DNA from: Ryuthela nishihirai
Taxonomy: Eukaryota > Arthropoda > Arachnida > Araneae > Heptathelidae
NCBI GenBank assembly: GCA_038380435.1
Contig: JAWZYU010000019.1
Location: forward strand, 29,413,801 to 29,477,800
Length of the DNA: 64,000 nt
Direction of reading: 5' to 3'
A program made the position numbers and the translations under genes. Every line of letters starts with the position of its first letter. The stretch's first letter is position 1. Under the pieces are notes generated by a model that saw nothing but the letters and a program-made list of their open reading frames with translations, made no database searches and had not been told where the DNA came from. Below, one piece after another: positions 4,186 to 63,732 of this stretch.

Positions 4186-5974
4186 TGCAACTCTGAGTTA
4201 CTTTGGGGAGGTCCCCCCCGAAGTAACTCGGAGTTGGCAAAATTCGAAGCGACTTCGTAAAATCAAGGTGAGTTGTGAAAATTTGTAATCAGTTTTTTTT
4301 TGCAAAATAAAGGGGAGTTGTCAAATTTGAGACAACTTGGCAAATCTAGGGCAGTTTAGAAAATGGAGAGACGGCAAAATCTAGAGCAGTTTGCAAAATT
4401 CGAAGCCACTTCAGTAAAATACGGGAGAGTTGGCAAAATGTGGGGTATTTGACAAAATTCGGAGAGACTTGGTAAAATCTTGGGGAGTTGGCAAAATTCG
4501 GAGTGACTTGGCAAAATCGTGGGGAGTTGGCAAAATTCAGGTAAGATGTAAAAATTGGGATTTTTTTCTGGAAAATTATGGCGACTTGGCAAAATCTAGG
4601 GGCAGTTGGAAAATTTCGGAGTGACTTTGGAAAATCGTGGGGAATTGGCAAAATTCGGAGTGACTTGGTAAAATCTTCGGGAATTGGCAAAATTCGAAGT
4701 GACTTGGCAAAATTCAGGTGATATGTAAAAATTGGGATTTTTTTCTGTAAAATTATGGCGTTGGCAAAATCTAGAAGAGTTGGTGAAATCTAGGGCATTT
4801 GGAAAATTATGGAGTGACTTGGCAAAAATCTTGGCGAATTGGAAAAATTCCGGTGAGTTGTAAAAATTGCAATTTTTTTTGTAAAGTTATGGCGTGTTGG
4901 CAAAATCGAGGTAGCTTCGCAGTATCTAGGAGAGTTGGCAAATCTTGAGGGAACTGGCAAAATTCAGAGTGAATTTACGAATTCAGGTGAGATGTAAAAA
5001 TTGGGATTTTTTTCCTGTAAAATTGGCGAGTTTGCAAAATCGAGGAAATTTGGCACAATCTAGAGCAGTTGGCATAATTTAAATCCACTTGGTAAAATAC
5101 GGGTGAGTTGGGAAAATTGGGATTGTTTTTGTGAAATTAAAGAGAGTAGACAAAATCGAGGCAACTTGGCAAATTTTAGGGAAGTTAGCAAAACTGGAAA
5201 CCACTTGGTAAAGTACAGGTGAGTTGCAAAAATTGGGATGGTTTTTTGAAATTAAGGAGAGTTGGAAAAAACGAGAGCTCTTGACAAAATCTAGGGGAGT
5301 TGGGAAAACTCGAAGCCACTTGGTAAAATACAGGGAAGTTGTGAAAATTGTGCCTTTCTTGTGCAATTAAGAAGAATTGATAAAATTCGAAGTGGCTTGG
5401 CAAATTCAGGAAAGATATAAAAATTGTTATTTTTTCTGTAAAATTACGGCGAATTGGCAAAATCTAGGGTAGTTGGCAAAATTCAAATCCACTTGGTAAA
5501 ATATAGGCGAGTTGTGATAATTGGGATTGGGTTTGTAAAATTAAGGACAGTTGACAAAATCGAGAAAACTTGGCAAAATCTTTGGGAGTTTGAAAATTTT
5601 GAAGTGACTTGGAAAATCTAGGAGAGATGTAAAGATTGGGATTAGTTTTGTGAAATTAAGGAGAGTTGGTCAAATCAAGGGTATTTCGTAAAATTCACAC
5701 TGACTTGCTGCAATTCAGACGAGATGTAAATAATAGGGATTATTTCTGTGAAATTTTGGCTAGTTGGCAAAATTGGAAGTCAAAAATGGCAAAAATGCAG
5801 GAGTGTTGTGAAAATTGCTTCAAATCCCTCCCCACACAAACATACGGAGCGAAAATCTAGGTACGAACGTGATAGAGACATTATTTCCTCAGTTGGCAAA
5901 ATTTGATTTTCGAGTTGGAAAATTTTTTATTTCTCTCCCCCCCCCCACAACCATAGTCCTTCGCTATGCACCTG
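4186..5974 (+). mobile_element. hAT-like element filled with TTGGCAAAAT minisatellite (copy 1)
   Basis: Begins with the same block that starts the element at 11166-13130 when read on its minus strand (AAGTAACTCGGAGTTGGCAA at 4220-4239) and ends CCATAGTCCTTCGCTATGCA-CCTG at 5974. That end matches the terminal CCTTCGCTACGCCCCTG of the family. The interior is a degenerate array with TTGGCAAAAT (or TTGGAAAAT, TTGGTAAAAT) roughly every 19-20 bp, often as about 39-bp dimers, interspersed with a longer unit containing 'atgtaaaaattgggattttttt'. All units point the same way. The left terminus is rearranged and no 8-bp TSD was found. Short frames across it on both strands are by-products of the periodicity. 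Confidence 0.75.
4189..4235. repeat. Inverted repeat at the left end of the minisatellite element
   Basis: AACTCTGAGTTACTTTGGGG (4189-4208) pairs with CCCCGAAGTAACTCGGAGTT (ending at about 4235) with only a couple of mismatches, across a short G/C-run loop. It sits where the intact family member has its terminal inverted repeat, so the end here may have been rebuilt by foldback. Confidence 0.75.
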
Positions 5975-7328: not shown

Positions 7329-7720
7329 AAGAGGCGGGGTTGGCTCAGTCGGTAGCGCGCCAGGCTCGTAATCTGTAGTTCCTAGGTTCGAGTCCCAGCT
7401 GGGTCAGCGTTGAGATTTATCTCCGAAAAACTCCCCGCCATGTCTTTGGTCACTAAGGGACACCGATGAGCTTGGAAAGGCCACCGTCCGTCGGATGGGA
7501 TGCTAAGCTTGGAACCGTGTGCGGGAGAGCCATACCCTGTACACATTAAAGAACACTCTGGATGGCCTTGACGGGAGGCTACCATCTCTCTCCCAACAGC
7601 TTTTCCAGTGGGTCCCCTCCCCTAACATCCTCTGTGTCTTCGGGGTCCATGTGACCTGGACATTTAGCCCATGGTGTGCAGAAAAATGCCGCTCAGAGGT
7701 AAAACAACCCAACCCAACCC
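7329..7720 (+). mobile_element. SINE-A, full length, inserted in LINE
   Basis: Head GAGGCGGGGTTGGCTCAGTC with a tRNA-like core and B box GGTTCGAGTCCC, and tail AAAACAACCCAACCCAACCC. Flanking sequence TAATGACC (7321-7328) versus TAATGCCG (7721-7728) suggests a partly decayed TSD. The LINE C-terminal region continues on both sides. Confidence 0.9.
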
Positions 7721-10603: not shown

Positions 10604-11165
10604 TATAGCCAAAGTGACTTCGGAATGTGATATAGGGTCATCATTAAAGCCAGTAATGCACCTATTCTTATTACAAACAATGGGAGTAGAAATAATCACA
10701 TTTTTTAGAACTCCTCTGAAATACTCAGCCAATCTAGCCATCACAGAATCCTCATCTTCAATCACCTTGCCATGTTTATCCCTTAATCCATATGTATCTG
10801 TCTGTTTCTTCACGCACAAAACATTAATAATCTGGTATAACCCCCTGTTGTTGTGCTGTCTAACTGCTTCCTCAGCTTTGTCAGCCAAGCAATCAAGCCA
10901 AAGATTCTTATCAGCTCTTAACTAATCTTTTACATGTTTCTTAAGCTCGTTGTAATGCCTTCTGTTAGGAGTGGTAGGGTGTTGATTCATATTAATCCTG
11001 CACTTCCTTGTTTCAAAAATAAGTTCCATAGCCTTATCACTCACAGAATTTTGTTTCCTCTGTTCCCTTTTACCCAAAAGAGTACTGTTGGTTTCAAGAA
11101 AAGCCTGTTTAAACTGATCCATTCTTTCTCAACTTCAGCAGTAAGCAAACCATGATTGTCATAAC
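10589..11165 (-). pseudogene. LINE linker region between endonuclease and reverse transcriptase
   Basis: Minus-strand frames (MDQFKQAFLETNSTLLGK near 11122, then a lysine-rich segment and a RLAEYFRGVLKNV-type segment near 10700) match, in order, the frame at 43212-43577 of the other LINE copy. The region links the two enzymatic domains and has no recognised catalytic motif. It is interrupted by stops and truncated at the hAT-like insertion. Confidence 0.8.
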
Positions 11166-11499
11166 CAGGGGCGTAGCGAAGGAATATGGTTGGGGGAAGT
11201 CCAAAATATTCTAACTCGAGCAAACTTGCTTAGATTTTCTCTGTGGGGGGGGGGGGGGTAAGCCAACTTTTAAGTCTCTCCTACTTTTTTGCCATTTGAC
11301 TTCCAATTTTACCAACTAGCCATAATTTCTCAGAAATATTTCCAATATTTACATTTCGTCTGAATTGTAGCAAATCAGTAGCATGAATTTTTGCCTTGAT
11401 TCGGTCAAATCTCCTTAATTTCACAAAACTAATTCCAATCTTTACATCTCTCCTAAATTTGCCACTTCAAACTTTCAAACTCCCCAATTTTATTTTTTT

Positions 11500-12660
11500 T
11501 TGGAAAATTAAGGGGTGTTGTCAAAATCGAGACAACTTGGCAAATCTGAGGCAGTTTGGAAAATGGAGAGACGGCAAATTTCACAGCAGTTGGCAAAATT
11601 GGAAGCCACTTAGTAAAAACAGGTGAGTTGGCAAAATCTTAGGGAGTTGGTAAAATTCGGAGTGACTTGGTAAAATCTTGGAGAGTTGGCAAAATTCGGA
11701 GTGACGGCAAAATCGTGGGGAGTTGACAAAATTCAGGTGATATGTAAAAATTAGGATTTTTTTCCGTAAAATTATGGCGAGTTGGCAAAATCTAGGCGAG
11801 TTGCCAAAACGTAGGGAATTGGCAAAAACTAGGGGGAGTTGGCCAAAACTAGGGGCAGTTGGCAAAATTCGAAGTGGCTTGGAAAAATCGTAGGGAGTTG
11901 GCAAAATTCAGGTGAGATGTGAAAATTTGGATCTTTTTTTCTGTAAAATTATGGCGAGTTGGCAAAATCTAGGAGAGTTGGTAAAACTTAGGGAGTTGGC
12001 AAAAACTAGGGGCAGTTGGCAAAATTCGGAGTGACTTGGCAAAATCGTGGAGAGTTGACAAAATTCTGGTGAGATGTAAAAATTGCAATCTCTTTTCTGT
12101 AAAATTATGGCGTGTCGGCAAAATCGAGGCAGCTTCGCAATATCTAGGAGAGTTGGAAAATCTTGGGGGAGTTGGCAAAATTCGAATTAACTTGATAAAA
12201 TACGGGCGATTTGTGAAAATTGGGATTGTTTTTGTGAAATTAAGGACAGTTGATAAAAATCGAGAAAACTTTGCAAAATCTAGGGGAGTTGGCAAAATTC
12301 GAAGTCACTTGGTAAAATACAGGGGAGTTGTGAAAATTGTGCCTTTCTTGTGCAATTAAGAAGAGTTGATAAAATTCGAAGTGGCTTGGCAAATTCAGGG
12401 AAGATGTAGAAAATGCAATATTTTCTGTAAAATTACAGCGAATTGGCAAAATCTAGAGTAGTTGGCAAAATTTGAATGTACTTAGTAAAATATAGGCGAG
12501 TTGTGAAAATTGAGATTTGTTTTGTGAAATGAAGGAGTGTTGGATAAATGGAGGAAACTTAACAGAATGTAGGGCAGTTTGCAAAATTCGAATCCACTTG
12601 AAAAATACGGGAGAGTTGTGATAATTGGGATTGGGTTTGTGAAATTCATGGTAGTTGACT
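11500..12660 (+). repeat. Minisatellite core, forward units
   Basis: Dimeric units of about 39 bp: AGTTGGCAAAATTCGGAGTG followed by ACTTGGCAAAATCGTGGGG. They alternate with a longer unit containing 'gatgtaaaaattgggatttttt'. The TTGGCAAAAT word is far better conserved than the spacer. Confidence 0.88.
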
Positions 12661-12666
12661 AAAATC

Positions 12667-13080
12667 GAAGAAAGAATTTCACCTCCACATCTCACCAGAA
12701 TTTTGCCAACTCCCCACGATTTTGCCAAGTCACTCCGAATTTTGTCAACTCCCCAAGATTTTACCAAGTCACTCCGAATTTTGCCAACTCCTCAAGATTT
12801 TGCCAAGTTGTCCCGATTTTGGCAACTCCCCAAGATTTCACCAAGTCACTCCGAATTTTGCCAACTCCCTAAAATTTTGCCAACTCACCTGTTTTTACAA
12901 AGTGGCTTCGAATTTTGCCAACTACTCTAAATTTTGCCATCTCTCCATTTTCCAAACTGCCTTAGATTTGCCAAGTTGCCACGATTTTGACAACTCCCAT
13001 TAATTTTCCAAAAAAAAACAACAACAAATTTTCACAACTCATTTAAATATTTCGAAGTCGCTTCGAATTTTGCCAACTCC
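12667..13080 (-). repeat. Minisatellite, inverted units
   Basis: The same dimer in reverse complement (ATTTTGCCAA every ~20 bp), best kept at 12700-12880. Together with the forward core it makes a large imperfect foldback. Confidence 0.88.
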
Positions 13081-13130
13081 GAGTTACTTTGGGGGGAGCC
13101 TCCCCCCATCCCCCCATGGCTACGCTCCTG

Positions 13131-13950
13131 GTCATAACGATTAAGTAGCCTATCATTGTATGCTTTGGCTATATCTGGATCTTTCAGACCTTCAGTATTG
13201 AAGGTAATTTTATTAACCTTAAGCACAACAGTTCTTAAACTTGAACTGCAAGACACTTTTTACCAGTTAATGATCAGACCCAATTTCGGCTCCCTGTATA
13301 ATCTGGTATTCCTAACTGCAAATGGTTGAACTAACCCATTTGCTGTTAATTAAAAGGTAATCTATTATATTCCTGTGCAACCCATCAGGTGCATTATGTA
13401 TATTTATAAATATCTCGGTGTGTTAGTATGTGTTAGTTAGTATGTGTTAGTTATTCGAAAACAATTAAGTTTACTTACTTGTAGGAGACGTTGCCCATTG
13501 CCATTGGAACAACCAATGCCAAAGGGACCTAAAACTCCTTCTCAAGATTAGAGTCAGTATTAACTTTAGCATTTGAAAACACCTAGCACAAGAGAAATAT
13601 CTCGTTTCTTCACAGAATTTAAAATATCCTTAAACTTGTTGTAAAACGCATCCTTCTGGTTCTCATCAGAGTCTTTTGTGGGGGCATAACAGCAGATGAC
13701 ATTCAAGTCTTTAATTTTTGTTTTAAATTTTGCTGCAAGAAATCTTTCATTAATGCAGTCATATCCTAGAAGAGCATCTGAGAAGCAAACCTACACCTGG
13801 AGATGCTTTCCATCCTCCCTGCCTGAAAAGAGAAATTTAAACTTTTAAGTATCTCACCTTTACCTGTCCATCTGATCTCTTCCAGCCTAGAATATCTAGG
13901 TTATAACGCTGGAATTCCTACGTGAGGACATCAAAAGAATAATCTCTATG
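13131..13950 (-). pseudogene. LINE endonuclease region, decayed
   Basis: Read on the minus strand this aligns, block by block, with 42480-43200 of the other LINE copy (for example the 'catctgctgttatgccccc' segment at about 13690-13670, matching the YAPTED endonuclease box). Frames are broken by many stops and frameshifts. A short GTGTTAGTTAGTAT duplication lies at 13430-13450. Confidence 0.75.
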
Positions 13951-24907: not shown

Positions 24908-26345
24908 ACAAATAGCATTTACTCATCGACAACAAATAGTTTTCTGTTCCATTTATTCATCTACAGCAAATGGTTTCTGTTTCATTTACTCATGAACATA
25001 AAATAATTTTCTGTTCCATTTACTCATGAACATAAAATAATTTTCTGTTCCATTTACTCAACACAACAAATAGTTTTCTGTTCCATTTACTCAGCACAAC
25101 AAATAGTTTTCTGTTCCATTTATTCAACACAACAAATAGTTTTCTGTTCCATTTACTCAACACAACAAATAGTTTTCTGTTCCATTTACTCATGCATAAG
25201 AAAGAGTTTTCTGTTCCATTTACTCATCACAACAAAATGTTTTCTGTTCCATTTACTCATTCATAAGAAAGAGTTTTCTGTTCCATTTACTCATTCATAA
25301 GAAAGAGTTTTCTGTTCCATATACTCATCTACAGCAAATAGTGTCTGTTTCATTTGCCCATGAACATAAAATATTTTTCTGTTCCATTTACTCAACACAA
25401 CAAATAGTTTTCAGTTCTAATTTACTCATCACAACAAATAGTTTTCTGTTCCATTTACTCATCACAACAAATAATTTTCTGTTCCATTTACTCATCGACA
25501 ACAAATAGTTTTCTGTTCCATTTATTCATCTACAGCAAATGGTTTCTGTTTCATTTACTCATGAGCATAAAATAGTTTTCTGTTCCATTTACTCATCACA
25601 ACAAAATGTTTTCTGTTCCATTTACTCATGCATAAGAAAGAGTTTTCTGTTCTATATACTCATCTACAGCAAATAGTTTCTGTTTCATTTACTCATGAAC
25701 ATAAAATATTTTTCTTTTCCATTTACTCATGAACATAAAACATTTTCTGTTCCATTTACTCATCACAACAAATAGTTTTCTGTTCCATTTACTCAACACA
25801 ACAAATAGTTTTCTGTTCCATTTACTCAACACAACAAATAGTTTTCTATTCCATTTACTCAACACAACTAATAGTTAGTGTTCCATTTACTCATGCATAA
25901 GAAAGAGTTTTCTGTTCCATATACTCATCTACAGCAAATAGTTCCTGTTTCATTTACCCATGAACATAAAATATTTTTCTGTTCCATTTACTCAACACAA
26001 CAAATAGTTTTCAGTTCTAATTTACTCATCACAACAAATAGTTTTCTGTTCCATTTACTCAACACAACAAATAACTTTCTGTTCCATTTACTCAACACAA
26101 CAATAGTTTACTGTTCCATTTACTCATCACAACAAATAGTTTTCTGTTCCATTTACTCATGCATAAGAAAGATTGTTCTGTTCCATTTACTCATGCATAA
26201 GAAAGATTGTTCTGTTCCATATACTCATCTAAAACAAATAGTTTCTGCTTCATTTACTCATGGACATAAAATAGTTTTCTGTTCCCTTTACTCATTCATA
26301 ACAGATAGTGTTCTGTTCCATTTATTAATTCAGAACCATATTTTA
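24908..26345. repeat. 33-34-bp satellite array (~42 units)
   Basis: The unit is TTTTCTGTTCCATTTACTCA plus a variable 13-14 bp end: ACACAACAAATAG, TCACAACAAATAG, TGCATAAGAAAGAG, TGAACATAAAATAA or TCTACAGCAAATGG. The left 20 bp is nearly invariant while the right part falls into about five discrete types. Because most units are 33 bp, long frames stay open by chance (189 codons at 25878-26447); this is not a gene. The array decays at both edges. Confidence 0.93.
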
Positions 26346-32404: not shown

Positions 32405-33830
32405 TCATGTTATTATGACGAAGACTGAATTATACTAAAAAAGTAGTATGATATACCCGTACAATGAAGATTCATTATACCAAAGAAGCGTAACATACCC
32501 GTACAATGAAGATTGAATTGAACAAAAGAAGCATGATATACCTTACAATGAAGATTGAATTGCACAAAAGAAGCATGATGTACCCTTACAATGAAGATTG
32601 AATTATACCAAAGAAGTATGACATACCCGCACAATGAAGATTGAATTATGTCAAGGAAGTATGATATGCCCGTACAGTGAAGACTGAATTATACCAAAGT
32701 AGTATGATATACCCGTACAATGAAGATTCATTATCCCAAAGAAGTGTAACATACCCGTACAATGAAGATTGAATTGAACAAGAGAAGCATGATATACCTT
32801 ACAATGAAAATTGAATTGCACAAAAGAAGCATGATATACCCTTACAATGAAGATTAATTATACCAGTGAATTATAATATGTCCGCACAATAAAGATTGAG
32901 TTATAGCAAAGAAGTATTATATACTCGTACAATGAAGATTGGATTATACCAAAGAAGTATGATATACTCTTACAATGAAGATTGAATTATACCAAAGAAG
33001 TATGACATACCCGCACAATCAAGATTGAATTATGTCAAGGAAGTATGATATACCCGTACAGTGAAGACTGAATTATACCAAAGAATTATAATATGTCCGC
33101 ACAATGAAGCTTGAATTATAGCAAAGAAGTGTGATATACTCGTACAATGAAGATTGGATTATACCAAAGAAATATGATATACTCATACAATGAAGATTGA
33201 ATTATACCAAAGAAGTATGACATACCCGCACAATGAAGATTGAATTATGTCAAGGAAGTATGATATACTCGTACAATCAAGATTGATTATACCAAAGAAT
33301 TATAATATGTCCGCACAATGAAGATTGAATTATAGCAAAGAAGTGTGATATACTCGTACAATGAAGATTGGATTATACCAAAGAAGTATGATATACTCAA
33401 ACAATGAAGATTGAATTATACCAAAGAAGTATGACATACCCGCACAATGAAGATTGAATTATGTGAAGGAAGTATGATATACCCGTACAATGAAGATTGA
33501 TTATAAAAAAGAATTATAATATGTCCGCACAATGAAGATTGATTATACCAAAGAATTATAATATATCCGCACAATGAAGATTGAATTATAGCAAAGAAGT
33601 ATGATATACCCTTACAATGAAGTTTGAATTATATCAAAGAAATATGACATACCTGCACAGTGAAGATTGAATTATTCAAAGAAATATGATATATCCTTAA
33701 AATGAAAACTGCATTATACAAAGAAGTATTATATATACCTGAACAATGAATATTGATTATACAAAAGAAGTGTGATATACCCGTACAATGGAGACTGAAT
33801 TATAGCGAAGGAATATTGTCGTATTCGCTC
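32405..33830 (+). repeat. 43-bp satellite array with higher-order units
   Basis: The monomer is AATGAAGATTGAATTATACC plus AAAGAAGTATGATATACCCGTAC. Monomer variants repeat in blocks. The TTATAATATGTCCGCACAAT variant recurs near 32871, 33087, 33301 and 33517, about 215 bp apart (five monomers). Earlier, a six-monomer block (~258 bp) starting ACTGAATTATAC near 32425 recurs near 32683. About 33 monomers in all. Confidence 0.92.
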
Positions 33831-34904: not shown

Positions 34905-35300
34905 AGGTATATATATATAATACTTCTTTGGTATAATGCAATCTTCATTGTAAAGGTACATCATACTTCTTTGGTATAATGCAATCTTCATTGTAAAGGT
35001 ATATCATACTTCTTTGGTATAATTCATTTTTCATTTTACGAGTATATCATACTTCTTTGGTATAATCAATCTTCATTGTACGGGTATATCATACTTCTTT
35101 TGTATAATTCAATCTTCACTGTGCAGGTATGTCATATTTCTTTGATATAATTCAAACTTTATTGTAAGGGTATATCATACTTCTTTGGTATAATTCAGTC
35201 TTCACTGTACGGGTATATCATACTTCCTTGATGTAATTCAATCTTCATTGTGCTGGTATGTCATACTTCTTTGGTATAATTCAGTCTTCATTGTACGGAC
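34905..35300 (-). repeat. 43-bp satellite, inverted arm
   Basis: The same monomer as 32405-33830 in reverse complement (ATCATACTTCTTTGGTATAA ... CTTCATTGTACGGGTAT), nine units. It ends where a Tc1-like relic begins. Confidence 0.92.
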
Positions 35301-36142: not shown

Positions 36143-36182
36143 GCCTCTGTTCACTTAGGGTTGGCAACCCAGAAGCAAACAA
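36143..36182 (-). mobile_element. LINE 5' UTR sliver
   Basis: CTCTGTTCACTTAGGGTTGG-CAACCCAGAAGCAAACA resembles 14424-14458 (CACTTAGGCCTGGCAACTCA-CAAGCAAACAG), part of the LINE 5' UTR in complement. It abuts the minisatellite element. Confidence 0.55.
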
Positions 36183-36615
36183 TCTTAGAGTTCGCAAAAT
36201 TCGAAGTGATCAGCAAAATTAAGATTAGATGTAAAAATTGTGATTTTTTTTCCTGTAAAATTATGGCAAGTTGCCAAGATCGAGACAACTTGGCAAAATT
36301 CGAAGCCACTTTGTAAAATACAGGCTGGTTTTGCGAAATTAAGGTTGTTTGTGAAAAATTGAGCAAGCTTTGTTAAATGAAGGTGAGCTTCGGCAATTCA
36401 CAGTGACTTTCTATTTCTAAAATTCATGTTTGATTTTGATTTTTTCTAGATATGTCAACCTCCCCACACACACACTTAGCTAAATGCACGATGCGTCGTT
36501 AACAGAGATATAATATATGTCAAGGTCTTAGTTTCTCATTTGTCAAAATTCGAATTTCGAGCTGGAAATTCTTCGATCTCTTCTCCCCCAACCATAGATC
36601 TTCGCTACTCCCCTG
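36183..36615 (+). mobile_element. hAT-like minisatellite element (copy 3, left-truncated)
   Basis: Minisatellite words (GTTCGCAAAATTCGAAGTGA, TTGGCAAAATTCGAAGCCAC) run to the family terminus CCATAGATCTTCGCTACTCC-CCTG at 36615. The left end and TSD were not found. Confidence 0.78.
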
Positions 36616-37299: not shown

Positions 37300-37693
37300 G
37301 TGGGTTGGGTTGGGTTGTTTTACCTCTGAGCGGCACTTTTTTGCACACCATGGGCTAAATGGCCAGGTCACATGGACCCCGTAGGCTCAGAGAAGGTTGG
37401 GGGAGGGAACCCACTGGAACAGCTGTTGGGAGACAGATGGTAGCCTCCCGTCAAGGCCATCCAGCGTGTTCTTTAACGTGCACAGGGTATGGCTCTCCCG
37501 CACACGGGGCCACGGCTTAACGTCCCATCCGACGGACGGCGGCCTTTCCAAGCCCATCGGTGTCCCCTACTGACCGTGGGCAGGGAGGGGGAATTTTGCG
37601 GAGATAAATCTCAACGCTGACCCAGCTGGGACTCGAACCTGGGAACTACAGATTACGAGCCTGGCGCGCTACCGACTGAGCCACCCCCGCCCC
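37300..37693 (-). mobile_element. SINE-A, full length, near consensus, 8-bp TSD
   Basis: From GTGGGTTGGGTTGGGTTGTT to GAGCCACCCCCGCCCC. AAACGTGC at 37292-37299 and 37694-37701. One of the least diverged copies, so probably young. Confidence 0.94.
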
Positions 37694-41692: not shown

Positions 41693-42381
41693 TGAAGCAA
41701 CATTTTTATACTAGCTAAGGTGTGAATGTAAATGTAGCTAGGTATTAACTGAAAGGAGAGCTATGCTCCAATCCCATGTGATGATGCATAGAACCGGACA
41801 GGTCTAGCACCTAATGTCCGACCCCGCCTTCTCGTGGTACAAACCGTTAGTACCTTTCACAAGAGATACTCTATTGTGCAAGTGAACGGAATGGGAAGGC
41901 TGCCAGTTTAATATGTTCTACTGATCTGGACAACTATGGCTACTTTCCTTTTTTTCTACATTTCTGAGGAGTGGTCAACCACCAGGACTCTATAACCTAT
42001 TGGACTGGACTGGATTAAGGTTCTGAGCTTGATTATGGATCCTGAATTTGCTGCAAAGGTTGTCTTCTGTGGAGAGAAATTCTGTCGCTGTTTTTTTTTT
42101 TCTGTTTGTTTGTGGGTTAACAGCCCCGACTGAATAGAATCACAGAATATGTTTTATCAGCTGATGGATAATCCTGAACAGAGGTCATCGCAGGCACCTG
42201 AACTCTTTGCTTCTACTGGCATCGTCAAATTATACATTGGAGGAAGTCTTCCAGTGTAGTTGGCTTCAGTCTTTAGTGGTGGGGAATGGGTCTTTGACCC
42301 ATGCCTGCGATTAGGGGGCTGTTTGATATTGTCGGCATTCCCTCTTACAATAAGCATACTTTCTTTAAACATCCCACTAAC

Positions 42382-42834: not shown

Positions 42835-43211
42835 CCTTTGTGGAAGAGTGATAGGCCCTTTTGGTATTGGTAGCTGCAATGGCAATGGGCAACGTCTCCT
42901 AAAGGTAAGTAAACTTAATGGTGTCAGAATAACTAACACCTATTACAAACACCGCGACATACCATTATGAAGTTACACATGTTTTTCACCAGATGGGCTG
43001 CTTTAGAATATGATTAGATTATATATTAATTAACACAAATGTGCTAGTTCTGTTATTAATACCAAGTCATATAGGGGAGCTGAAATTGGATTTGACCATT
43101 ACCTTGTTAAAAGTGTCTTCCAAATTAAACTTAAGAAGTGTTGTGCTAAAATTAAAAATTTTACCTATAATTCCTGAGCTCTGAAAGACCCAGTTATAGC
43201 TAAAGCTTACC

Positions 43212-43577
43212 ATGATAGGTTACTTAGTCATTACGTATGACAGTCATGGTTTGCTTACTACTGAAGTTGAGGAAGAATGGTACCGTTTTAATCAGGCCTT
43301 TCTTGAAACTAACAATACTCTTTTAGGAAACAAGGAGCAGAGGAGACAAAATTATCCCAGTTATAAGGCACTTGAGCTTATTTCAGAAAGAAATAACTGC
43401 AGGAATGTCCTTAATCTATATCCTACTAGTCCTAACAAAAAGCATTACAGAGAGCTTAATAAGCGTGTAAAGGATCGGTTAGCTGCTGATAATAATCTTT
43501 GGTTTGATGACTTGGCTGACAAAACCGAGGAAACAGTTAGACAGCACAACAGAAGGGGAGCTGTACTAGATAATTAA
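43212..43577 (+). pseudogene. LINE linker region
   Basis: Contains FNQAFLETNNTLLGNKEQRR and a KHYRELNKRVKDRLAADNN segment, the same order as the minus-strand copy near 11122-10600. No catalytic motif. Confidence 0.8.
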
Positions 43578-45880: not shown

Positions 45881-46454
45881 ACGATTAAGATGATGATGAA
45901 GGTTACATATCTATTTATCATACAATGTAAATTAAAAGAGACACAATACTATGGATTTTTATAATATAAGGATAAAAAATATTAAGTTTTAGTCTCGCCA
46001 TTACTCAAGAGAAAATTTAGAAAGCATTTATTCTTAGAAACAACATTCAATGCGACCCTTTCACTTCCTATGCTCAGCGCATCATTGACGCTAGACTGCA
46101 GCGATCAGAATGAAGTGAATTTTCTTTTACTGAGAGAGTAAATTAGCTCTATTAGAGGTAGAAGAAAAACCGCAAACTTTTAACCAAATTTTAAAATATA
46201 GAGAAGTGCTTTTAAAGAAATCAATTAATATTTGGTAGATTTAGTGTGTACATTTTTATGATGCAGTATATTTTGCAAACGTGTAATCAGTTATTTGACG
46301 AGGTCTTTGAAATATATGGGTGTGCAAAACTGAAGCGCAAATTATAGAATCATAGTCGCCGTCTTGTTACCAATGATTCATCCATAAATATGTATTGAAT
46401 TGTTAGAGCTATTCATTCCAAGTCTCTAGTCGGAGTCATATATTTCTTTCCACC
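45881..46454. other. Unassigned AT-rich sequence
   Basis: Nothing recognised. Confidence 0.45.
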
Positions 46455-46715
46455 TCTCAGTGACGTGTCAATAAAATCACCTCTCAGTGACGCACCAATA
46501 AAATCACCTCTCAGTTACGTGCCAATAAAATAATCTCTCAGTGACGTGCCAATAAAAATCACCTCCCAGTTACGTGTCAATAAAAATCACCTCTCAGTGA
46601 CGTGCCAATAAAATCACCTCTCAGTGGCGTGTCAATAAAATCACCTCTCAGTGACGTGCCAATAAAATCACCTCTCAGTTGGGTGTCAATAAAACTTACC
46701 TCTCGATGACGTGCC
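46455..46715. repeat. 27-bp tandem array carrying TGACGTG
   Basis: About ten units of CCTCTCAGTGACGTGCCAAT-AAAATCA. Most keep TGACGTG or TTACGTG. As 27 is a multiple of three, the minus-strand frame at 46577-46774 reads as a 9-residue repeat; that is a by-product. Confidence 0.93.
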
Positions 46716-47814
46716 ATAGTTTCGCTACAGCTGCACTGGTGCATACAGAGGAGGTGAATGTCCACTGAAGCCAAGATCTACTGCATTTCATGTTTACGTC
46801 CACTGATCTTTCCTCCAAACCACCACTCTCCACTTGCTTCTGGAGCGAGGTGATAAGCTGGGAATGCAATCACAGCTTGTACATAGGAAAAGACAAATTA
46901 AGAAGCTTTCAAGGTTCTACGGATCTTACGCAGTACCCAAGGGGTGGTCTTGGGTTACCTGAATCTCCCCCTCTCGCCTTCGGGATAAAGGTGGGGTTGG
47001 GAAGATCATGTCTTACACACGTGGGTGAGATTAAGGATGGTTCCGATAGGGAGGGTGCCGGGACATAGATAGTAATTAAATTTTTGCCCTAGACAAAGCC
47101 GCGGCAATTATCCTGAGCTAAGGTGGCTGCAGATGACCGCTCGTTAATGTAGCTTTTTCGTCTTCTGCTGGTTCTTTACCGCTCTTGCTTCAGTGGTCAC
47201 GTCGGGGCTTTTAATGAGGCCCTCGTTGAGGCTTGCGCCTCCGGGAATGTCCTGATTGGACTCGTAACGGTTGCTATGGAAACCTCTCTTTCCCTGATGC
47301 TGATAAAACGCCTTAGCATCTACTGCATTAGCATTTCTTACAGTAAGAGGGAGGGATGGGAAAAAATGTTAAAAAAAAACCTGTTACGAAGATTTCTTAT
47401 CAACGAAATGCTTTCGGTTTTAAAGGGTATAGCTGGAAAAGGAGAGCAAATTGCAACTGAGAGAAATGAAAAAGTTCTTTTTAATTCCTGAGACGCCAGA
47501 AAAAATAAGATTTAATGTTGATCATTAACTAAATGGTCTTTTTCCCACTGAATTTGCCGAATCGATCAATCAATTAAATATTAATTCAGAGATCAAGCAA
47601 TGTTTTTCAACAGTGTAGTCGAGTGATACGTTGAATGATACCGTTGCCAAAATGGCTCATTTTAATTGCAAGACGGTGGTGGAAGGAAGGAGGTGGAGAA
47701 CTGAAGAGGTCTCTAGCGCAACTGGTTCTTAACCTGATCGTCCCAAAATGAAATCTCAACTCTTATTCTATGAGATATCTTTCGTTTACGTTCTACACTC
47801 ACGAGAAAGAGGAA
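46716..47814. other. Unassigned, locally GC-rich, possibly regulatory
   Basis: 46920-47290 is clearly more GC-rich than its surroundings and contains no TE I recognise. The 92-codon frame at 46790-47068 has no domain. A candidate RFX site lies at 47270-47283. Confidence 0.4.
47270..47283. promoter_or_regulatory. Candidate X-box (RFX factor site)
   Basis: GTTGCTATGGAAAC matches the RFX X-box pattern GTTGCCATGGCAAC at 12 of 14 positions, including both half-site cores. RFX factors drive ciliary and neuronal genes in animals. One 14-bp hit in 64 kb is only suggestive; it gains weight from lying in the GC-richer patch. Confidence 0.4.
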
Positions 47815-63346: not shown

Positions 63347-63732
63347 GTCGGGGGTGGCTCAGTCGGTAGCGCTCCAGGCTCGCAATCTGTAGTTCCCAGG
63401 TTCGAGTCCCAGCTGGGTCAGCGTTGAGATTTATCTCCGCAAAATTTCCCGCCCTGCCCACGATCAGTAGGGGACACCGATGGGCTTGGAAAGGCCGCCG
63501 TCCGTCGGATGAGACGTTAAGCCGTGGCCCCGTGTGCGGGAGAGCCATACCCTGTGCACGTTAAAGAACACGCTGGATGGCCTTGATGGGAAGCTACCAT
63601 CTGTCTCCCAACAGCTGTTCCAGTGGGTCCCCTTCCCCAACCTTCTCTGAGCCTTCGGGGTCCATGTGACCTGGCCATTTAGCCCATGGTGTGCAAAAAA
63701 GTGCAGCTCAGAGGTAAAACAACCCAACCCAA
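63347..63732 (+). mobile_element. SINE-A, full length, near consensus
   Basis: Head GGTCGGGGGTGGCTCAGTCG, B box GGTTCGAGTCCC, tail AAAACAACCCAACCCAA. ATTATTAC at 63331-63338 and 63733-63740 may be the TSD, offset by a few bases on the left. Confidence 0.94.

Follow-up and report, generated by a model that had tools for sequence, protein, structure and literature searches.

A probable non-autonomous hAT-type transposon family with a minisatellite body in the spider Ryuthela nishihirai

An insertion of 1965 bp, here called W1, lies at positions 11166-13130 of the window, the 64,000-nucleotide stretch of Ryuthela nishihirai DNA that was analysed, and its exact borders were determined. The window covers 29413801-29477800 of contig C19. 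The element begins with CAGGGGCGTAGC and ends with GCTACGCTCCTG, and reading of the sequence places an exact 8-bp target site duplication, GTCATAAC, on both sides of it (11158-11165 and 13131-13138). The left terminal inverted repeat, CAGGGGCGTAGC (11166-11177, plus strand), is alike or similar in 22 aligned left ends and pairs over 12 bp with the right terminal inverted repeat (13119-13130, minus strand), which reads CAGGAGCGTAGC on the minus strand; the short inverted ends (CAGGGGCGTAGC / GCTACGCCCCTG) are of the CAGGG...CCCTG kind. In the family alignment, the likeness between left and right is limited to the first dozen or so bases. The duplication and the inverted ends had both been claimed in an earlier sequence-only reading, and both stand. 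The host sequence of W1 is a repeat that the same reading called a LINE, and around a further copy of the element (locus L009) a frame in this repeat matches endonuclease-reverse transcriptase domains. The reverse transcriptase has distant matches only, the best of which by E-value is at 40% identity.

Most of W1 is occupied by a minisatellite with the unit TTGGCAAAAT. TRF reports arrays with periods of 19, 39 and 117 inside the element; the units are ~19.5 bp long and form pairs of 39 bp, and longer periods of 77-78 and 116-117 bp are also seen. A unit like TTGGCAAAAT with up to two mismatches is found in 28 of the 33 60-bp bins of W1, so that the earlier figure of over 80 percent array holds if degenerate units are counted and fails otherwise. 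The array of W1 is not a single head-to-tail run: the orientation of the units changes from minus at the left end to plus and back to minus. The left-end domain of ~325 bp (11166-11490, plus strand), which is conserved among copies, passes from two G tracts into degenerate minus-oriented units. It is followed by a plus-oriented array block (11490-12657, plus strand) and by a minus-oriented block that runs to the right end (12698-13080, minus strand). The start of the plus block is an inverted copy of the sequence found ~110 bp inside the right end (83% over 325 bp), and the arms 11490-11700 and 12811-13021 are complementary at 91% over 211 bp. These long inverted arms are internal, beginning ~325 bp inside the left end and ~110 bp inside the right end.

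Two further members of the family are located in the window. W2 (4205-5974, minus strand, left end at 5974) has a one-directional array with minus orientation nearly throughout. Its right-end match begins ~18 bp inside, and no target site duplication with one mismatch or fewer was found for it. By eye, the terminal bases of this broken right end (4190-4240) are replaced by a near-perfect short palindrome, ACTCTGAGTTACTTTGGGGAGG / TCCCCCCCGAAGTAACTCGGAG, which looks like a hairpin repair scar. W3 (36168-36615, minus strand, left end at 36615) is truncated, with a short one-directional array, and the part that matches contains no right end.

Other repeats are also present in the window. A SINE-like short repeat with a matched core of ~75 bp occurs at 19 places in the 64 kb (2869-2952, 7638-7715, 37307-37385 and 63652-63730, among others), and it would be extremely abundant if the density in the window is typical. 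The identity of these copies to one inserted in the element at locus L025 is 77-97%, and 12 aligned copies have similarity beyond the core; the scattered ~75-bp matches, considered as further copies of the W1 element, were rejected on their match to this repeat. The stretch fetched with the L025 insertion also holds a mariner-type transposase fragment (PF01359) at 185-775. A 43-bp unit forms two arrays in opposite orientation, ~1.1 kb apart (32440-33804 and 34914-35298), and may represent a further element whose inverted arms carry repeats. A 33-bp minisatellite of ~42 copies (24916-26324) and a 27-bp array (46451-46716) were also observed.

The left end of W1 (window 11150-11260) was used as the query against the 3.11-Gb assembly, and 40 of 485 first-look candidates were scored, giving 41 matches at 40 places. 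The 39 loci other than W1 were fetched and analysed together with it. Units of the TTGGCAAAAT array are present in all 40 loci, with 5 to 48 units within the first 1.5 kb, in a sample that cannot show arrays without the left end because the loci were picked by it. Exact patterns of the left end and of the array unit had no matches in viral contigs, a set from which records near the genome of the window were possibly omitted.

Grouped by shared flanks, the 40 loci represent 28 distinct insertions (29 by strict identity of 12 flanking bases, because L036 differs slightly from its group). One insertion is present eight times, one three times (L011, L017, L018), one four times (L024, L036, L038, L039) and 25 once. 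The eight-copy insertion (L012, L014, L015, L019-L022, L027, on contigs C223, C789 and C8) has identical flanks in a multiplied multi-kb segment, and its loci were for this reason rejected as independent insertions; an Rfam scan of three of the eight copies (L012, L019, L022) gave no family above the cut-off, rRNA included. Left ends diverge from their consensus by a K2P of 0.036-0.126 in 27 of the 28 insertions; the left end of L046, at 0.675, is replaced or misaligned.

The 8-bp duplication is perfect at 12 of the 28 insertions (W1, L009, L011, L023, L025, L028, L029, L031, L035, L036/L038, L037, L047), although it is weaker evidence at L035, where TGTCTGTC is inside a TGTC repeat and the ends have mismatches, and at L023, where the octamer recurs in the surrounding satellite. 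Five insertions have one mismatch (L013, L016, L026, L044, L046) and two have two (L042, L043). The sequence read contains no usable right end for the remaining nine, namely the eight-copy insertion, L010, L030, L032, L033, L034, L040, L041 and L045; the stretches of L030, L032 and L034 end at 3 kb. When read by eye, the duplication of L024 is also perfect if its right end has one base missing. Counted by locus, a perfect 8-bp repeat stands beside a right-end-like motif (up to three substitutions allowed, best candidate used) in 13 of 40 loci and in none of 200 shuffles, in which the left octamers were permuted among loci and loci drawing an identical octamer were skipped. Twenty-one loci have an accepted right end and elements of 839-2881 bp. 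The repeat is a perfect 8 bp in 13 of these 21, and perfect repeats of 5, 6, 7, 9, 10 or 11 bp were found in none, in a set selected with the 8-bp test itself. Ends common to other genomic copies and 8-bp duplications at other insertions, both anticipated in the sequence-only reading, are therefore present, and the array is carried to many places by an element that is non-autonomous and has short inverted ends.

It is very probable that these copies belong to a non-autonomous cut-and-paste DNA transposon family with a minisatellite body, derived from a single founder. No transposase frame was found in 14 bounded elements, in which the longest stop-free stretch is 222 amino acids (L038), and no hAT domain was found in the 10 frames scanned of 46 frames of at least 140 amino acids from the fetched loci. 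Elements of the hAT superfamily have CAG...CTG (CAGGG...CCCTG) ends and prefer targets of the form nTnnnnAn or nnnTAnnn. On the basis of its ends and duplications, the family is probably of hAT type. Duplications of 8 bp are not unique to hAT, and the same kind of element could have been moved by another superfamily that makes them (P, Merlin or Mutator), a reading that overlaps the preferred one except for the enzyme. The scanned elements and frames, in which no transposase was found, are compatible with this, and in the parts of the two sources available, Tetris, with duplications of 8-10 bp, is filed in Mutator by its authors (PMC4079207) and Galileo, which is internally repetitive, belongs to the P superfamily (PMC3573991). 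The CAG...CTG ends point instead to hAT, and where the repeat is perfect (13 loci) the duplications measure 8 bp rather than 7, 9 or 10, which makes another superfamily unlikely.

Empty counterparts were found for five insertions (W1, L009, L016, L023 and L031). The sequence-only reading had proposed a second LINE copy in the window as the empty site of W1. This copy, near 43240 on the reverse strand, does belong to the same repeat, but it has four extra bases at the W1 site (GTCATACGTAATGAC versus GTCATAACGAT in the joined flanks) that are absent from both other compared copies, W1 and L009, and it was rejected as an exact empty site. The left flank of L009 reads GTCATAATGACTAAG without a gap at the W1 site and continues for ~22 bases to the right of the junction before the L009 element begins; it is the better empty site and was used instead. 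The joined flanks of L009 itself match the LINE copy at 43146-43270 (minus strand) gap-free at the junction, the same four extra bases excepted. Those of L016 match an uninterrupted repeat gap-free at window 41779-41896, and those of L031 match an uninterrupted repeat gap-free in L007 and also in L005 and L008, the three being one multiplied segment. The joined flanks of L023 match their own surrounding satellite. A match of L029 to L028 was not counted (60 bp, with just 12 bp to the left of the junction), nor was a self-match of L035 in its TGTC repeat.

These sites bear on whether the array owes its spread chiefly to segmental duplication, or to carriage within other repeats, and not to transposition. 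Such multiplication did occur, as eight loci have one left flank, three have GGATCAGG and four have TCTGTTCC, but it is confined to 12 extra copies among the 40 loci. The 28 distinct insertions, 12 of them with their own perfect target site duplication, and the existence of empty sites make it a very improbable main route compared with transposition.

The copies have a common architecture in which the left end is followed by an inverted array, a direct array and the right end. The junction between the left end and the inverted array was aligned through in 37 of the 39 other loci, corresponding to 25 of the 27 other insertions, the exceptions being L023 and L046. One internal junction common to so many loci indicates a composite that was formed once and then spread by transposition. 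Some match to the inverted copy of the right-end-proximal sequence is present in all 15 bounded elements compared, at another position in L013 and over only 28 bp in L025. The centre of the fold-back is variable, as 14 of 25 compared elements (W1 included) align through the W1 centre and at least two forms exist. When W1 was compared with eight other bounded elements, six aligned over 1.2-2.1 kb at 72-78%, with shorter alignments of 440 bp for L025 and 523 bp for L013, although part of such an alignment is expected between any two arrays of the TTGGCAAAAT unit. That separate elements with common ends each acquired or grew the minisatellite, as the repeated capture proposed earlier would have it, agrees with the variation of array length and detailed make-up among copies (bounded elements of 839-2881 bp) but was rejected as highly improbable on the shared junction, which places the array in one founder; the alignment of W1 with six of eight other elements also speaks against it.

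The array of L034 contains, at 1271-2434, a stop-free frame of 388 amino acids with no Pfam match; long open frames in arrays of this type may be a by-product of the periods, since both 39 and 117 are divisible by three.

The single founder may itself have come from a simpler element. The left-end alignment of W2 has no junction with an inverted array, and its left end is more diverged than those of 27 of the 28 insertions (K2P 0.174 versus 0.036-0.126). Aligned with W1, L028, L029 and L031, the W2 array runs opposite to the plus block and in the same direction as the minus block on the right. In L009, L011, L023, L031 and L035 the direct array opens with a second left-end anchor that has at most one error. 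The bases after this anchor are AAAATTTA in L009 and, as in W2, AAGATTTT in the other four. Anchors with two or three errors are found at this position in L030, L032, L034 and L042, but these looser matches may be due to chance, because the anchor is a variant of the ordinary unit and W2 alone has three matches at five errors or fewer. We read the W1-like structure as likely to have arisen when the body of a W2-like element was duplicated in inverted orientation, with the second anchor since lost in the W1 type. W2 would then be the ancestral form, or it could instead have lost the inverted block. L025 was considered as a second one-directional form with a target site duplication and was rejected, as it keeps ~30 bp of the inverted side before the SINE-like insertion.

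In the proposed sequence of events, a simple one-directional element of the W2/W3 type would have had its array duplicated in inverted orientation immediately inward of the left end, perhaps through template switching during repair, with a junction in a T-run that offers possible microhomology. The founder would have been mobilised in trans by a transposase encoded elsewhere in the genome, and each insertion would seed a dispersed minisatellite whose units could then be gained or lost by slippage or unequal exchange.

Changes in array length were observed between copies of one insertion. The comparison covered ten pairs of loci belonging to the same insertion or group, several of the copies being on small contigs where allelic copies or assembly effects are possible. 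L012 and L015 are 99.9% identical over 1454 bp and differ by a 210-bp indel in the array; for L017 and L018 the identity is again 99.9%, over 2026 bp, and the array indel is 91 bp. Indels were also found between L012 and L014 (97.9%; 267 bp), L012 and L027 (98.1%; 40 and 267) and L014 and L022 (97.5%; 9). L036 and L038 (96.0%) have several, and L012/L019 (92.9%) and L011/L017 (88.3%) have many. Indels of at least 8 bp were absent between L019 and L020 (99.2%) or L019 and L021 (99.8%).

MITEs are short (under ~800 bp), non-coding elements with short inverted ends and a high copy number, and the 21 bounded loci of 839-2881 bp are above this size. Foldback (FB) elements have inverted blocks of short tandem repeats; their inverted repeats extend to the termini and their duplications are 9 bp. 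Inverted tandem-repeat blocks without coding capacity, as in foldback-type elements (FB, Tetris), are present in the W1 family (14 bounded elements, at most 222 amino acids), whereas long inverted repeats that include the termini are not, the arms at 11490-11700 and 12811-13021 being internal. Work by Inukai from 2004 reportedly concerns minisatellites in rice.

The known elements closest to the W1 family are Tetris, Foldback and Galileo. The nearest published case is Tetris, a foldback transposon of Drosophila virilis described in a source that also names the FB elements of Drosophila. In the portion of that source available, Tetris is, like the W1 family, apparently non-autonomous and modular with inverted internal tandem repeats, it makes duplications of 8-9 (to 10) bp, and its repeat number differs between two allelic copies (PMC4079207). 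The same portion reports that the source of its transposase was not found and that its repeats also form kb-size satellite arrays. The Tetris repeats are ~220 bp, in contrast to units of ~19.5, 39 and 117 bp here, and they lie within long terminal inverted repeats of up to 1735 bp, whereas the long arms of W1 are internal (PMC4079207). Galileo, an element of the P superfamily in Drosophila, is also internally repetitive with tandem repeats that expand and contract, and its inverted extension has been explained by copying the tract of one end into the other (PMC3573991, as far as its text was available). Unlike the W1 family, it has 7-bp duplications, a known P-type transposase and a tandem unit of ~210 bp (same text). 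The tandem repeats of Galileo have been proposed as extra transposase-binding sites (PMC3573991, same text). Here, too, the TTGGCAAAAT unit might be an expanded subterminal transposase-binding site, with array growth raising mobility and the inverted duplication favoured by the orientation of the sites beside the left end, although we consider this unlikely. If the array were the working part in this way, the family would be a minisatellite evolving by selection for transposition.

Several MITEs are associated with tandem repeats. Xstir, miDNA4, (GTCY)n, HindIII and BIV160 are non-autonomous and carry or spawn a tandem repeat, and the MITEs in the available part of this review are ~400 bp as compared to 0.8-2.9 kb, mostly array, here (PMC9659126). 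Further elements of this sort, bearing or generating tandem repeats, are listed in the accessible part of PMC6947457. Among the literature matches listed, none described the W1 family by title or abstract start, which leaves its unpublished status unproven. In the literature searched, the 12-base end CAGGGGCGTAGC was printed only in work on the gene TINF2/TIN2, no title among the matches listed for the array-unit strings concerned a repeat family, and no literature was found that combines minisatellite, MITE, hAT and internal tandem repeats. As far as could be looked, this is a new family and not a new kind of element. What sets it apart is that units occur in 28 of 33 60-bp bins of W1 and that its long inverted arms lie inside the element and not at the ends.

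The dispersal of a ready-made tandem array by transposition is a known principle, with precedents in Tetris, Galileo and several MITEs. The W1 family offers a clean case of it, with borders, duplications, empty sites, one traceable founder architecture and an array length that can be compared between copies of one insertion. The family would make the question of whether transposons seed satellites a countable one in a 3.1-Gb genome.
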